A stretch of 64,000 nt of DNA, from positions 896,552 through 960,551 of the forward strand of contig NZ_LT707408.1 of the NCBI RefSeq assembly GCF_900156875.1. Direction: 5' to 3'. Below are positions 15,201 to 21,136 of the stretch, one piece after another (within the stretch, counting starts at the first letter, position 1; every line of letters begins with the position of its first letter). The notes under the pieces were generated by a model, which had not been told where the DNA came from, did not search any database, and saw nothing but the letters and a program-made list of their open reading frames with translations. This DNA is from Robertmurraya dakarensis (GTDB taxonomy: Bacteria > Bacillota > Bacilli > Bacillales > Cytobacillaceae). A program made the translations under genes and the position numbers.

Positions 15201-15226
15201 CCCAGCATAGGATGGATATATGCTCA
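15201..15226 (+). promoter_or_regulatory. Candidate mother-cell sigma factor promoter element before asnO
   Basis: AGCATAGGATGGAT (15204-15217) contains a CATA -10-like core. An AC doublet lies 16 bases upstream, which resembles sigma-K spacing. The same 14-mer occurs before the yjaV-like gene at 49251-49264. B. subtilis asnO is known to be expressed during sporulation. The sigma factor assignment is tentative. Confidence 0.35.
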
Positions 15227-15268
15227 AAAATGAATACACAAATGTTCCACTTAGAAAGGATGATGACA

Positions 15269-17119
15269 ATGTGTGGGATAACGGGCTGGGTTGACTTTCA
15301 AAGAAATTTAACTCGTGAAGTGGTTACAATTGGTAAAATGACTGAAACATTAACGAAACGTGGTCCTGATGATACGAATATTTGGACCAACACACATGTC
15401 GGCTTTGGCCATAAGAGGCTTGTTGTCGTTGACCCTGAAGGTGGAAAGCAGCCAATGACAAAAACGAAAGATGGTTTTTCCTTTACGATTTGTTATAATG
15501 GCGAGTTATACAATACGGAAGACATACGGAAAGAGCTGTTATTAAAAGGATATTCCTTTAAGGGTCATTCTGATACAGAAGTTCTATTAACTGCCTATAT
15601 AGAATGGGCAGAAAATTGCATTAACCACTTAAATGGGATATTTGCTTTTGCTGTTTGGGATGAGAAAAAGAATCAACTCTTTATTGGGAGAGATCGATTG
15701 GGAGTAAAGCCACTCTTCTTTGCTGAACTGGAAAAAGGCTTGATTTTTGGCTCAGAATTAAAAGCGCTGCTTGCCCATCCTAATATGAAGACAGAAATCG
15801 ATCGCATTGGTCTAGCTGAGGTTTTTTCCTTAGGTCCATCCCGTACTCCTGGTTCTGGTGTCTTTAAAGGGATTAAAGAGTTAAGACCTGCTCATGCCCT
15901 AACCCTATCGCCAAGCAATGGTTTGAAAATTTGGAGATATTGGAATGTAGAGAGTAAAAAACATGAGGATTCTTTCGAACAGACAGTAGAGAAAGTACAG
16001 TTCTTATTTACAGATGCTGTTAAAAGGCAGCTTGTCTCGGATGTTCCTCTATGTACATTCCTATCAGGCGGCGTGGATTCCAGTGCGATTACAGCGATTG
16101 CGGCAATGGAGTATGAAAAAGCAGGGAAAGGTAAGCTTCATACGTATTCGATTGATTACGAGGGCAATGATCAATTCTTTAAAGCAAACGAATTCCAGCC
16201 AAATTCAGATGCTGCTTTTATTGAGAAAGTTACGAAAGAGTTTGGTACTACTCATCATTATTCTGTTATTACTCAGGAACAGCTTGCTGAGCATTTGATT
16301 GAGGCTGTTCATGTAAGGGATTTGCCGGGAATGGCAGACGTTGATTCCTCCTTGCTTTGGTTCTGCCGTGAAATTAAGAAAGATTATGTCGTCAGCCTTT
16401 CGGGAGAGTGTGCAGACGAGATTTTCGGCGGATATCCTTGGTTTCATCGAGAAGATGATCTAAACAGGAAAGGATTTCCCTGGATGAGATCGATTCATGA
16501 ACGTCAGAATCTCTTAAAGGAAAATTGGCGTCAAAAATTACGTCTTGAAGATTATATGATGGAAAAGTATCAAGAAACAATTCGTGAAACACCGAAACTA
16601 GATGGTGAGAGTCAGCTTGAAGCAAAGAGAAGAGAGTTGTTCTATCTGAACATGCTATGGTTCATGACGACTTTATTAGATCGAAAAGACCGGATGAGTA
16701 TGGGAGCAAGCTTAGAGGTTCGTGTTCCGTTTGCAGATCATCGCTTGGTAGAGTATGTCTGGAACATCCCATGGCAAATGAAAATGCATGGCAATCGTGA
16801 AAAGGGTCTGCTCCGAAAAGCATTAGAAGGAATATTGCCAGAAGAAGTTCTTTACCGCAAGAAAAGCCCATATCCAAAGACTCATAATCCAGCTTATACA
16901 AAAGCGGTGAAGTCAATGTTGAACGAGATTATGGAAAATCGCAGTTCAGTTCTCTATGAATTTTTTGATGAAACAAAGCTGAAAGAAATTATTGAGTCGG
17001 AGGGCAATGCATTTAAAGAACCGTGGTTTGGGCAGTTAATGACAGGGCCGCAGCTGCTCGCATATCTTGTTCAGGTACATGTCTGGTTTAATGATTATGG
17101 GGTCCAGATTGTAGACTAA
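15269..17119 (+). CDS. asnO: Asparagine synthetase (glutamine-hydrolysing), AsnO type
   Basis: This class-II glutamine amidotransferase/asparagine synthetase has 616 residues. The start must be the ATG at 15269, because the next codon is the essential N-terminal Cys (MCGITGWVDF) and AAAGGATG lies just upstream; earlier ATGs in the frame are spurious. The glutaminase domain has RGPDD and YNGELYN. The synthetase domain has the PP-loop FLSGGVDSSAI, then SYSGECADE-like SLSGECADEIFGGYPWF and DRKDRMSMGASLEVRVPFAD. It converts aspartate, glutamine and ATP to asparagine. The position after yisN matches B. subtilis asnO (yisO). Confidence 0.95.
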   Translation: MCGITGWVDFQRNLTREVVTIGKMTETLTKRGPDDTNIWTNTHVGFGHKRLVVVDPEGGKQPMTKTKDGFSFTICYNGELYNTEDIRKELLLKGYSFKGHSDTEVLLTAYIEWAENCINHLNGIFAFAVWDEKKNQLFIGRDRLGVKPLFFAELEKGLIFGSELKALLAHPNMKTEIDRIGLAEVFSLGPSRTPGSGVFKGIKELRPAHALTLSPSNGLKIWRYWNVESKKHEDSFEQTVEKVQFLFTDAVKRQLVSDVPLCTFLSGGVDSSAITAIAAMEYEKAGKGKLHTYSIDYEGNDQFFKANEFQPNSDAAFIEKVTKEFGTTHHYSVITQEQLAEHLIEAVHVRDLPGMADVDSSLLWFCREIKKDYVVSLSGECADEIFGGYPWFHREDDLNRKGFPWMRSIHERQNLLKENWRQKLRLEDYMMEKYQETIRETPKLDGESQLEAKRRELFYLNMLWFMTTLLDRKDRMSMGASLEVRVPFADHRLVEYVWNIPWQMKMHGNREKGLLRKALEGILPEEVLYRKKSPYPKTHNPAYTKAVKSMLNEIMENRSSVLYEFFDETKLKEIIESEGNAFKEPWFGQLMTGPQLLAYLVQVHVWFNDYGVQIVD

Positions 17120-17127
17120 TGATCAAA

Positions 17128-17149
17128 GCCGCCCTTTGAAGGCGGCCTA
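17128..17149. terminator. GC-rich hairpin between asnO and the GH13 gene
   Basis: GCCGCC (17128-17133) and GGCGGC (17141-17146) form a short strong stem between two convergent genes, touching the minus-strand stop codon. The T-run is weak (TTT on the minus strand), so efficiency is uncertain. Confidence 0.55.
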
Positions 17150-18907
17150 CCATTTAAGAATACAGATTTCAAACGGATCCACTTCAACACTTAATTGATC
17201 AGCTTCAGTCGCAAATTCACGATCATCTAAGAGATTCGTAATCTTTCTCCCCTTTAAAGAAAATGGCAGATGATACTTTATTTTTTGGTCAGATGAGTTT
17301 AACAAAACAAAAATTGTTTTTGTTTTGTTACTTCTTACATAAGCAATCCAATTCTGATTGTCAGAAGCATCGATAAACGATATAGCTCCTTCACCGCAAA
17401 GGAGTTTTTCCTGTTTTCGCACCTTGATCAATCGTTTTACATGGTTGAAAATCTCTAAATTCCATTTGTTTTGTTCCCAAGGCATACAAGCTCTGCAGCC
17501 AGGATCCATCCCTCCTTGCAGACCAATTTCATCACCATAAAAGATACAAGGTGTTCCCGAGAACGTCAGAAGAAAAGAGAAGATTAATTTAACTCTCTCG
17601 ACTCTGCCTCCACATTCTGAAAGAATTCTAGGAGTATCATGACTGCCGATTAAGTTGAACAGTGTTTCATTGATGGTCGCTGGATACTGATGAATACAAG
17701 ACGTGATATTTTCAACAAATTCTTTCGCAGTGATACTCTTCTTTGCAAAATAACGGACAACATTTAGTAGGAACGGATAGTTCATGACAGAATCAAATTG
17801 ATCGCCCCGGAGCCAAGCAATAGAGTCATGCCAAATTTCTCCAAGTATGAAGATGTCAGGCTTTAGTTTCTTTACCTCTGTTCGAAACTCCCGCCAAAAT
17901 GCATGATCGATTTCGTTTGCGACATCGAGCCGCCAGCCATCAATATCAAATTCTTTTACCCAATAGCGTCCAACGTTTAGAAGGTACTCTTTCACTTCTT
18001 TATTTTGCGTATTCAACTTTGGCATAGTATCGACAAAACCAAAGGTTGCATAGTTAGGGGTACTGCCCCCTTGCAGTGGAAAGTTTTTGATGTGAAACCA
18101 GTCTGCGTAGGCAGAAGCTGTTCCATTTTTGAGTACGTCCTGAAAGGGTTCAAAATAATAGCCTGAATGATTGAAAACAGCGTCGAGCATCACTCTTATT
18201 CCATTCCCATGACATTTTTCTATGAGTTTCTGAAATAGGTGTTTACCACCAAACTGAGGATCAATTTCAAAATAATCGATACTGTCGTACTTGTGATTAG
18301 AATAGGCTTTGAAAATTGGTGTAAGATAAATGCCTGTAATTCCAAGGTCAACTAAATAATCTAGGCGGTCAAGAATCCCTTGAAAATCTCCTCCAAAAAA
18401 ATTAGTCGTTGAGGGAGGTTCACTACCCCAAGGCTTTGCTTCTTTTGGGTTTAATTTTTTATCACCATTTGCAAATCTTTCAGGAAAGATTTGATACCAA
18501 ACAGTTTCTTTGACCCAATTCGGTGCACGGAACACTTCCTCGCTGTGCAGGTAGGGGAAACAAAACCATTGATTAGGGTCTTCAGGCGGGTGGGGAAAGA
18601 ATCCTTTCTCTGTGTAAAAAAGTGTCTCTCCATCATTGGAAAGCAAAAAACCATATCGGATTCTACGGTGCTCGGGTGTAACTTCTATTTGCCAATAATC
18701 AAAAATTGAATCAGTCCCTGTTTTTTCGAGCTTTTCCTGATGTGTCACCCATTTTCCATTAATCCATTCATACTGATCTCCATATATAAGCTCAACTGTA
18801 CTAATATTTTTCTTTTTTGTTTTGATTTTGATATGCAGTGAGTTTTCTGTAAAGGGGTATACAAACTGATCGACAGCACGGTGAACCACGGATGATCGTT
18901 CAATCAT
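17147..18907 (-). CDS. GH13 cyclomaltodextrinase / neopullulanase / maltogenic amylase
   Basis: A 586-residue cytosolic enzyme of the GH13_20 type, with no signal peptide. An N-terminal starch-binding-like domain (about 1-125) precedes the (beta/alpha)8 barrel. All conserved regions are intact: MLDAVFNHSG (region I), DGWRLDVANE with nucleophile D328, GEIWHD with acid/base E357, and LIGSHDT with D424. Such enzymes degrade cyclodextrins, pullulan and maltodextrins. It is transcribed divergently from a membrane-anchored GH13 homologue 159 bases away. AAAGGAGG precedes the ATG by 11 bases. The exact substrate cannot be told from sequence. Confidence 0.93.
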   Translation of the reverse strand: MIERSSVVHRAVDQFVYPFTENSLHIKIKTKKKNISTVELIYGDQYEWINGKWVTHQEKLEKTGTDSIFDYWQIEVTPEHRRIRYGFLLSNDGETLFYTEKGFFPHPPEDPNQWFCFPYLHSEEVFRAPNWVKETVWYQIFPERFANGDKKLNPKEAKPWGSEPPSTTNFFGGDFQGILDRLDYLVDLGITGIYLTPIFKAYSNHKYDSIDYFEIDPQFGGKHLFQKLIEKCHGNGIRVMLDAVFNHSGYYFEPFQDVLKNGTASAYADWFHIKNFPLQGGSTPNYATFGFVDTMPKLNTQNKEVKEYLLNVGRYWVKEFDIDGWRLDVANEIDHAFWREFRTEVKKLKPDIFILGEIWHDSIAWLRGDQFDSVMNYPFLLNVVRYFAKKSITAKEFVENITSCIHQYPATINETLFNLIGSHDTPRILSECGGRVERVKLIFSFLLTFSGTPCIFYGDEIGLQGGMDPGCRACMPWEQNKWNLEIFNHVKRLIKVRKQEKLLCGEGAISFIDASDNQNWIAYVRSNKTKTIFVLLNSSDQKIKYHLPFSLKGRKITNLLDDREFATEADQLSVEVDPFEICILKW

Positions 18908-19002: not shown

Positions 19003-19030
19003 TTGACGTTAAGGGAGAGAAAAGGATAAT
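19003..19030 (+). promoter_or_regulatory. Candidate sigma-A promoter of the GH13-like gene
   Basis: TTGACG (19003-19008) and GATAAT (19025-19030) are separated by 16 bases, 37 bases before the start codon at 19067. Both hexamers match the vegetative consensus at five of six positions. Confidence 0.55.
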
Positions 19031-19066
19031 CTTATAGGGGTATATTAATGGTGAGGAGATAGTAAA

Positions 19067-20554
19067 ATGAAAAAATTGCTTTTTTTCATCACTGTTCTGA
19101 TTCTGTTTTTTTCTAGTTTGCCGGCATCAGCTGCTGGTATAGAGGAACGGACTTGGCAGGATGAAACTATTTATTACTTAATGGTGGATCGTTTTAATAA
19201 TAATGACGTTAACAATGACTATACTGTCGATATCTTAGACCCCGACCGTTACCATGGAGGAGATTTCCAAGGGATTATTGATCAGCTGGATTATCTAAAA
19301 GATATGGGATTTACTGCTATTGCACTCAACCCTATTTTTGATAATGAAGACAACGGCTATCATGGTTATTGGATAAAGGACTTTTATGAGATTGAAGAGC
19401 ACTATGGGACGATTGATACGTTCAAAGCACTTATCTCGGAGGCACATGAAAGAGATATGAAAGTGATGGTAGATTTTGTTGTCCATACTGTCGGACCTAA
19501 TCACCCTTGGGCAGCCGATCCTGAAAAAGATGATTGGTTGGCAGACTCTGTAAATGAAGATGACACACTTACATTAAATCTGCAAAACAATGAAGTGAAA
19601 GATTACATAATAGAAGCAGCAAAGTGGTGGATAGAGGAGACCAATCTTGACGGTTATCGCTTAAAAGCTGTCGATGAGGCTCCGGCAGATTTCTGGACTA
19701 GCTTCGCTGCTGAGGTAAAAAAGGTTAAGGAGAATTTTTATTTACTAGGAGATTTAACATCAGATGATCCTCAAATGGTTGAAAAATATAAAGGAACTGG
19801 GATAGATGGATTTTATGACTATGAGCTTAACAAACATGCAAGGTCAGTATTTGCTACAGCAGATCAAGCATTAGAACCTCTGTTTAAGTCATGGGAACAA
19901 AGACAAGCTGCCTTTGAAAATCCATATCTTGCAGGGACCTTTATGGATAATCATAATATGACTAGATTTACTAGAGAAAGTATTACCAAAAACGAGCATC
20001 CAGGTCCTCGCTGGAAGCTGGCGCTAACTTATCTTTATACTGTTCCGGGAATTCCTATTGTCTATTATGGAAGTGAGATTGCATTAGATGGCGGGGGAGG
20101 AACAGATAACTTTGGCCAGATGGATTTTCGAACAGACAAGGAATTAATCGATCATATCACATCCATTGGTGAGCTCCGTAACAGCCATCCTGCATTAACG
20201 CGCGGGACCTTTGAACTGCTTCATGAAGACCAGGGGATGGCAGTGTATAAAAGGGAATTTGAAGATGAAACAGTTGTCGTCGCTCTCAATAATTCAACTT
20301 TCTCTCAATCAGTGACAATTACTTCTGAATTAGAAGATAATATGGAGTTAAGAGGTCTGCTGAATGGTGATTTGGTTCGCAGCGCAGAAGGGCAATATCA
20401 AATCATTCTTGATCGTGATGAGGCAGAGATTTATCTTCTTGCTGAAAAAACTGGGGTAAATATCCCTTTAATTGCTGCGACATCATCGGTCGCTGTTGGA
20501 TTTGTTATTTTCTTAATCCTGTTGAAAATAAGGTCTAGAAGAACGGCACCATGA
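19067..20554 (+). CDS. Secreted, membrane-anchored GH13 alpha-amylase homologue, predicted catalytically inactive
   Basis: The 495-residue product has a signal peptide (MKKLLFFITVLILFFSSLPA, cleavage likely after ASA). A GH13 barrel follows, with a C-terminal beta domain and a C-terminal membrane helix (ATSSVAVGFVIFLILL) ending in RSRR. It should sit outside the cell, tethered to the membrane. The fold is clearly alpha-amylase: YHGGDFQGIIDQLDYLKDMG, VPGIPIVYYGSEIAL. The active site is lost. Region II reads GYRLKAVDEA, so the nucleophile Asp is K200. Region III reads LLGDLTSDD, so the acid/base Glu is D229. Region IV reads MDNHNMTRF, so the third Asp is N297. Region I Asn-His is H140-T141. The frame is intact and well preserved, so it is probably a functional non-enzyme (glucan binding or scaffolding, inferred), not a decaying pseudogene. 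Confidence 0.88.
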   Translation: MKKLLFFITVLILFFSSLPASAAGIEERTWQDETIYYLMVDRFNNNDVNNDYTVDILDPDRYHGGDFQGIIDQLDYLKDMGFTAIALNPIFDNEDNGYHGYWIKDFYEIEEHYGTIDTFKALISEAHERDMKVMVDFVVHTVGPNHPWAADPEKDDWLADSVNEDDTLTLNLQNNEVKDYIIEAAKWWIEETNLDGYRLKAVDEAPADFWTSFAAEVKKVKENFYLLGDLTSDDPQMVEKYKGTGIDGFYDYELNKHARSVFATADQALEPLFKSWEQRQAAFENPYLAGTFMDNHNMTRFTRESITKNEHPGPRWKLALTYLYTVPGIPIVYYGSEIALDGGGGTDNFGQMDFRTDKELIDHITSIGELRNSHPALTRGTFELLHEDQGMAVYKREFEDETVVVALNNSTFSQSVTITSELEDNMELRGLLNGDLVRSAEGQYQIILDRDEAEIYLLAEKTGVNIPLIAATSSVAVGFVIFLILLKIRSRRTAP

Positions 20555-20644: not shown

Positions 20645-21136
20645 TTAACGGTAATTCACAAACTGAACATCAACAGTTAAATCAGCATCCTTAACCGCTG
20701 CAATAACGCTTTGCAGGTCATCCCGGCTTTTCGCAGTAACACGGATTTGATCATCCTGAATCTGGCTTTTTACTTTTAAGCCGCTGTTTTTAATAATTGT
20801 GTTAATTTTTTTGGCGTTCTCTTTGTCAATACCTTGAACTAATTTAGCTCTTTGTCTAACAGTCCCTCCAGAAGCACCTTCAACTTTACTATAGTCGAGA
20901 TTTTTAATTGGAACACCGCGCTTGATCAGTTTCCCGATTAATACATCTTTCAGCTGTTCGAGTTTATACTCATCATCTGAGACCAGTACAAGTTCTTCTT
21001 TATCAAGTTTAACATCGCTTTTACTTCCCTTAAAGTCGTAACGAGTTGAGATTTCTTTCATGGTGATGTTAATAGCATTCGTTACTTCCGCAAAGTCTAC
21101 TTTCGACACAATATCAAATGAGCTCTCTTTTGCCAT
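20645..21136 (-). CDS. yitK: YajQ family nucleotide-binding protein (YitK)
   Basis: A 163-residue UPF0234/YajQ protein with two alternate ferredoxin-like domains: [42 protein letters not shown], then [17 protein letters not shown]. YajQ homologues bind cyclic di-GMP in some bacteria, and tRNA or GTP binding has been suggested; the role in Bacillus is unknown. TGGGAGG precedes the ATG. It is monocistronic with its own sigma-A-like promoter. Confidence 0.95.

Follow-up and report, generated by a model that had tools for sequence, protein, structure and literature searches.

Results

The amylase-like gene and its surroundings

The window, i.e. the whole stretch of 64,000 nucleotides that was analysed, contains a gene for a protein derived from the GH13_45 alpha-amylases. 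The features of this locus are as follows:

15212..17119, forward strand: asnB-like gene, the left flank in many relatives
17147..18907, reverse strand: divergent GH13 enzyme of the neopullulanase / maltodextrin-glucosidase type, no signal peptide by eye, below the curated ncbifam cut-offs
19003..19030, forward strand: promoter-like TTGACG-N16-GATAAT, from a pattern search and read directly in the window
19053..19058, forward strand: probable ribosome binding site GAGGAG, from the sequence
19067..20554, forward strand: GH13_45-derived protein of 495 amino acids with the altered triad K200/D229/N297, from translation and alignment
19067..19141, forward strand: signal peptide region, approximately residues 1-25, with a hydrophobic helix 2-16 in the model
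19142..20206, forward strand: barrel (domain A; PF00128), with a domain B shortened at about residues 138-172; limits set by us
20207..20449, forward strand: C-terminal beta domain, residues 381-461 (PF22026, residues 380-456, E 3.4e-29)
20462..20545, forward strand: C-terminal transmembrane helix 466-493 with basic tail, from the model helix and hydropathy
20645..21136, reverse strand: YajQ-like gene, the right flank in many relatives

The open reading frame starts with ATG and comprises 495 codons without an internal stop. The first-pass annotation of this DNA had described an open frame, a signal peptide, a membrane anchor and a divergent GH13 gene 159 bases away, and all of these were recovered: the N-terminal hydrophobic helix and the C-terminal helix with its basic tail are present (hydropathy of 2.61 over 19 residues, followed by a net charge of +4), and the spacing to the divergent gene is as described. 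Scores of both GH13 proteins of the window against named ncbifam models were far below the cut-offs.

Loss of catalytic residues

The protein aligns with the Anoxybacillus alpha-amylase of PDB entry 5a2b with an E-value of 1.3e-169. GYRLDTVKHVP of 5a2b corresponds to GYRLKAVDEAP in the window protein, placing K200 at the position of the nucleophile, LLGEV corresponds to LLGDL (acid/base position, D229) and FLDNHDTVRF to FMDNHNMTRF (third catalytic position, N297), while the Asn-His of DFVVNHTG is replaced by H140-T141 in DFVVHTVG, exactly as first annotated. Domain B shows a 14-residue gap relative to 5a2b, with LTLNL instead of LPDL. W86, H159, H204, D345 and R349 of the conserved set are also replaced, and in total the protein deviates at 20 of 111 conserved columns. 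In GH13 structures several of the positions lost beyond the triad line the sugar cleft. The window protein probably does not function as a hydrolase of this family. The proposal that K200 and D203 arose by an exchange of the usual Asp and Lys was rejected: the five other copies from the Robertmurraya genus group have Glu at both 200 and 203, which looks like drift at both sites.

The predicted structure (mean pLDDT 83.3, pTM 0.82) has 5a2c as its top Foldseek match (TM 0.93 by target length, 56% identity over 450 columns) and also matches the 4e2o fold. By sequence and fold the protein thus belongs with GH13_45 proteins such as BaqA, GTA and ASKA, with which it shares domain order, and it contains the Trp pair of the subfamily (AKWWI, residues 187-188). 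Unlike the window protein, BaqA, GTA and ASKA keep Asp-Glu-Asp, and intact homologues mostly keep the adjoining importer genes described below. Other marks of the subfamily are absent: the LPDlx motif in CSR-V reads LTLNL, the Asp/Glu/Asp triad of GH13 alpha-amylases is K200, D229 and N297, and the C-terminal stretch of some 30 residues, which should hold five aromatics, is present as a membrane helix but has F479 and F482 as the only aromatics after residue 461 (counted by eye). Nor does it show the BmaN1 pattern of Lys followed by Asp, then Glu and His, as it has K200-A201, D229 and N297. Of the 194 proteins collected here, 193 score for a membrane helix in this conserved C-terminal region of GH13_45 proteins, to which an aromatic motif for starch binding had been ascribed.

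Altered triads among homologues

The triad is altered in 81 of the 194 distinct homologues of our collection, which was in part picked by hand and is not a random sample, and intact in 113, where intact denotes Asp-Glu-Asp at the triad alone; the length filter favours open frames, and fragments such as that of G077 are excluded from these counts. Three proteins with an intact triad (L128, L224, L066) deviate at 10-16 conserved columns. Alterations affect one position in 20 homologues, two in 29 and three in 32, in 63 different letter combinations. The window gene is thus no isolated oddity. In its genus group, the five further copies of full length all read E-D-H.

The window protein, which has no close relative (best identity 61%), is placed among intact-triad homologues in the tree. 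The copy from a record named Robertmurraya korlensis (L114) has an intact triad together with importer genes and is found elsewhere in the tree. A BmaN1-like protein (L266; K-D, E and H, i.e. K-E-H), whose mature start QDHKDIRDE matches the primer in PMC11448133, is found inside a clade of 27 members that are all altered. When the trait columns were left out of the tree, 13 state changes were counted (14 with a mixture model), compared with a mean of 62 and a minimum of 53 in 50 label shuffles, the trees being quick ones with SH-aLRT support only and several weak inner branches. These counts give no direction, gain or loss; we take losses to be likelier.

G077, an incomplete genome that also belongs to this genus group, has a copy (locus L040) split over two frames, which is either an assembly error or a pseudogene. 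Two genomes (G040 with L075 and G020 with L093) contain a tandem, in which the copy beside the cytosolic GH13 gene is altered and a second one, some 4 kb away, is intact.

Missing maltodextrin importer genes

Intact relatives sit at the same gene place as the window gene, and their usual order is a divergent GH13 enzyme, mdxE, mdxF, mdxG, the amylase and a LacI regulator (e.g. L114). Many loci have the same flanks, with an asnB-like gene to the left and genes of the YajQ-like, CvfB-like, DegV-like and YitT-like types to the right; the names of these flanking genes and of the mdx genes are presumptive. The window lacks the LacI-type gene that comes after intact amylase genes. In counts that are not independent of kinship, mdxF or mdxG adjoins 107 of the 113 intact but 8 of the 81 altered genes (missing beside 6 and 73, respectively), and a LacI gene follows 106 of 113 intact versus 11 of 81 altered genes. 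When independent pairs were compared, mdx genes and triad differed in the same direction in 3.9 of 9 pairs (5.2 of 10 with the mixture model) and in opposite directions in 0.0 on average, with no difference in the rest; sign tests gave a median p of 0.125 (0.0625 with the mixture model). Altered triads with importer genes present (L112, L115, L123) as well as intact triads without mdxF/mdxG (L216, L152, L249, L128, L224, L066) were seen, which shows that both orders of loss occur.

On the level of genomes, the MdxE query matched 26 of 62 hand-picked genomes at 1e-25. Of the 46 with altered copies only, 33 had no match, while the match was strong in 8 and weak in 5; among the 15 with an intact copy 12 had a strong match, one a weak match and two none, and G077, with its split copy only, had none. 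In the genome of the window, MdxE found nothing at E <= 0.001 and MdxF gave one weak match of 28%.

The window and 14 further altered loci have a cytosolic GH13 gene no more than 1.5 kb upstream, and no such gene is seen upstream in 60 of the 81 altered loci within the stretch examined. A search limited to the neighbours of the window gene revealed no new neighbour common to altered loci, only the old flanks. The other PF00128 proteins of the window genome look cytosolic by eye, in a search for further amylases that covered PF00128. The genome also contains glgB-like and glgC-like genes (named by eye), so that the cytosolic GH13 enzyme of the window could serve internal glycogen. In two Peribacillus loci (L141, L152) the amylase gene is directly followed by an extra GH13-like gene with 25-27% identity to the cytosolic GH13 enzyme of the window.

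A promoter-like site at the end of mdxG

In intact loci the pattern TTGAC-N16-18-[GA][AC]TAATC spans the last codons of mdxG. Of the intact genes with mdx, 67 of 107 are preceded by it; of the altered genes lacking mdx, 35 of 73 have it and the other 38 do not show its strict form, whereas single-base shuffles of the latter group gave 0.02 expected sites and at most one (200 rounds). The site is also absent from the altered copies of L075, L078, L093 and L094. In the window the first 27 bases of the site (19003-19029) also read LTLRERKG-stop, where intact loci have LTAGGTKG-stop at the end of mdxG, and this reading is taken as a remnant of the mdxG 3' end; the promoter core was kept while the surrounding mdxG frame drifted. 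The site together with this remnant suggests that the importer was most likely excised with this stretch being spared. Going by its sequence, the site would work as a promoter. Catabolite (cre) and sporulation sigma sites were rejected: no cre site was found upstream in any of the three groups examined and excesses of sigma-type sites were small (SigF-like 2 of 60 versus 0.4, SigB-like 3 of 60 versus 1.4, SigH-like 3 of 107 versus 0.7 and SigA-like 2 of 107 versus 0.8).

Selection on altered proteins

Altered genes have a median dN/dS of 0.119 (range 0.07-0.19, 51 close pairs, all of them relatives of the window gene, whose own best identity is 61%), compared with 0.050 for intact genes (248 pairs). 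In non-overlapping close pairs (28 intact, 9 altered) the value rises from 0.040 in intact to 0.118 in altered genes for the barrel and from 0.088 to 0.125 for the C domain; for the transmembrane part (25 and 8 pairs) it rises from 0.072 to 0.156. The barrel is thus relaxed about threefold in altered proteins, the C-terminal domain little.

Among the 111 scored columns, for which the median retention in altered proteins is 0.88, D297 ranks 4th, D200 6th and E229 11th of the least retained, and W86, D345, H204, H296 and H141 are found near them. Two columns of the C domain are better kept in altered than in intact proteins (R429, 0.95 versus 0.62; L432, 0.93 versus 0.71), although this may in part reflect the different species represented in altered and intact sets. 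The C-terminal membrane helix is present in all 81 altered proteins, and 73 of 81 pass the test for an N-terminal hydrophobic segment compared with 109 of 113 intact ones. Full-length frames of altered copies persist between lineages at 50-60% protein identity.

These values indicate purifying selection in altered relatives and, with the promoter-like site and the helix, support the view of the first-pass annotation that a probable pseudoenzyme has been preserved. The existence of intact orthologues and the relaxed barrel agree in part with what it had named as signs of a recent pseudogene, but taken together the data do not look like one.

Discussion

GH13_45 proteins with aberrant triads were already in print before this analysis. 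Sarian et al. 2017 (PMC5347038) describe the BmaN1 type and a second group (Nos 28-34) in which the entire triad is altered, and report 8.4 U/mg for BmaN1 partly purified from B. megaterium, using reducing-sugar assays, a zymogram and an empty-vector control. According to Frima et al. 2024 (PMC11448133), refolded BmaN1 from E. coli showed 1.54 U/mg and a truncated form 1.69 U/mg, the recombinant enzyme was inhibited by acarbose, and a predicted transmembrane helix in the C-terminal region was already noted. Marecek et al. 2024 (PMC11239784) place the BaqA and BmaN1 types in GH13_45 and state that some GH13_48 proteins without catalytic residues "may lack the enzymatic activity". New in our analysis are the 81 altered triads among 194 homologues, the 13-14 state changes and the association with missing mdxF/mdxG. 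Neither a non-catalytic reading of GH13_45 proteins nor a link to importer loss was found in listings of the papers retrieved or in passages of PMC5347038, PMC11239784, PMC11448133 and PMC12695923. A search for pseudoenzyme glycoside hydrolases in Bacillaceae, with few subscription papers in its scope, found no paper, and searches for GH13 pseudoenzymes in Bacillus and for Robertmurraya amylases gave nothing relevant in titles and beginnings of abstracts.

The window protein shares with the two groups of Sarian et al. its subfamily, the Trp pair and the replaced catalytic positions; it differs from them in its K/D/N triad, the missing LPDlx and the loss of most C-terminal aromatics. Those groups were read as alpha-amylases with odd triads, whereas the wider set of sequences used here points to a loss of hydrolysis. 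The reported activity of BmaN1 is the main fact opposing such a loss, and the BmaN1-like L266 belongs to an all-altered clade; BmaN1 keeps the acid/base Glu, unlike the window protein. Likewise, some MdxE-like protein is kept in 13 of the 46 altered-only genomes, in 8 of them with a strong match.

The window protein might itself still act as an amylase through unusual catalytic residues in the manner claimed for BmaN1 (Asp beside the Lys at the nucleophile, Glu, His), which would be in line with the BmaN1 assays, the zymogram with its empty-vector control (PMC5347038) and the acarbose inhibition (PMC11448133). We consider this quite unlikely. Among the 81 altered proteins, Asp stands at the proposed BmaN1 nucleophile column 201 in 11 and at column 203 in 17. 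The window protein itself has Ala at 201, Asp instead of Glu at 229, Asn at 297 and further conserved residues lost, and 63 triads among 81 proteins do not look like a novel catalytic set maintained by selection. A shifted nucleophile of the BmaN1 type was for the same lack of conservation at 201 rejected. It is also unlikely that the gene is in slow decay with its function gone. The threefold higher barrel dN/dS, the split copy of G077, the loss of the importer genes and a few matches elsewhere with an internal stop (G030, G253, G171) would agree with decay; the dN/dS of 0.07-0.19 in all 51 altered pairs, the full-length frames at 50-60% identity, the promoter core kept amid a drifting mdxG frame and the membrane helix of all 81 altered proteins speak against it.

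We give little credence to two further readings. The first-pass annotation suggested a surface binder of alpha-glucans that feeds the neighbouring cytosolic GH13 enzyme, as the closeness of that gene in the window and 14 other altered loci might indicate. While the preserved, exported, anchored and probably non-working hydrolase of that suggestion stands, the feeding role does not fit, because the cleft residues and the importer are lost: mdxF/mdxG are absent beside 73 of the 81 altered genes, the window genome lacks an MdxE match (queries of the Mdx type only), most altered loci have no upstream cytosolic GH13 gene in the stretch examined, and with glgB-like and glgC-like genes present the cytosolic enzyme could be occupied with glycogen; such a role is very unlikely. 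That the cleft was remade into a new enzyme, acting on a different substrate by means of different catalytic residues, is perhaps the least probable of all. Cleft residues do change while the fold stays, and two of the 15 columns gaining most conservation are acidic, D304 (57% of altered proteins, Glu in the window) and E401 (94% of altered, already 77% of intact proteins), but the cleft positions vary with no common new residue, E401 is in the C-terminal domain and most of the 15 columns are non-acidic.

The likeliest explanation, and on the whole a probable one, is that the protein is a selected, non-catalytic, membrane-tethered GH13 ectodomain contacting another component of the envelope, since this fits best with a loss of hydrolysis combined with purifying selection, export and anchoring. 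The ancestor would have been a secreted, membrane-anchored GH13_45 alpha-amylase of the Bacillaceae maltodextrin locus (GH13 enzyme, mdxEFG, amylase, LacI). In the lineage of the window the adjoining importer genes and the regulator would have been lost with the promoter-like site at the mdxG end being spared, the catalytic carboxylates and neighbouring cleft residues would have gone, and the protein would still be made, exported and anchored through its C-terminal helix. Its present role may resemble that of rBAT and 4F2hc in animals, which combine one membrane helix with an ectodomain of the alpha-amylase family and partner a transporter (PMC8537225). The comparison with these SLC3 proteins is an analogy and does not imply descent: rBAT and 4F2hc have an N-terminal anchor and a known partner, whereas the anchor of the window protein is C-terminal and no candidate partner was seen among its neighbours in the window. 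A more far-reaching version, in which Bacillaceae repeatedly turned the amylase into an SLC3-like non-catalytic envelope partner, often behind a promoter left over from mdxG, and in which all aberrant GH13_45 proteins including BmaN1 are pseudoenzymes, appears doubtful to us.

The published view holds that GH13_45 amylases can function without the canonical triad, and our comparative data offer a testable alternative to it, namely that several lineages gave up catalysis at about the time when they lost the maltodextrin importer, yet retained the anchored protein. Altered copies in related bacteria seem to be kept for some job other than cutting starch. If this is true, part of the proteins labelled "alpha-amylase" in Bacillaceae carry a wrong name, and a natural experiment, several times repeated, would show that the amylase fold has a value at the membrane beyond starch cutting.

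Methods

Homologous loci were collected from a search of 151 genomes of the family, which yielded 30 loci (best matches), 60 stretches hand-picked across identity and genus, the best 80 of at least 565 matches, and a search of 199 genomes of the order, which yielded 30 loci plus 60 further stretches. Matches at E <= 1e-20, more distant GH13 proteins included, were found in 145 of the 151 family genomes and matches at 1e-100 in 110 of the 199 order genomes. ORFs were included with more than 250 bits and more than 400 matched query residues, giving 261 ORFs of which 194 were distinct. Columns were scored when at least 97% conserved in intact proteins. dN/dS was calculated by NG86 for 299 of the 3006 pairs with more than 62% identity, namely those with a dS of 0.05-2.5.

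Records named Pseudomonas, Chryseobacterium, Paenibacillus and Sporosarcina (L098, L125, L105 and L101) contain Bacillaceae-type loci, and some of these names are probably wrong.
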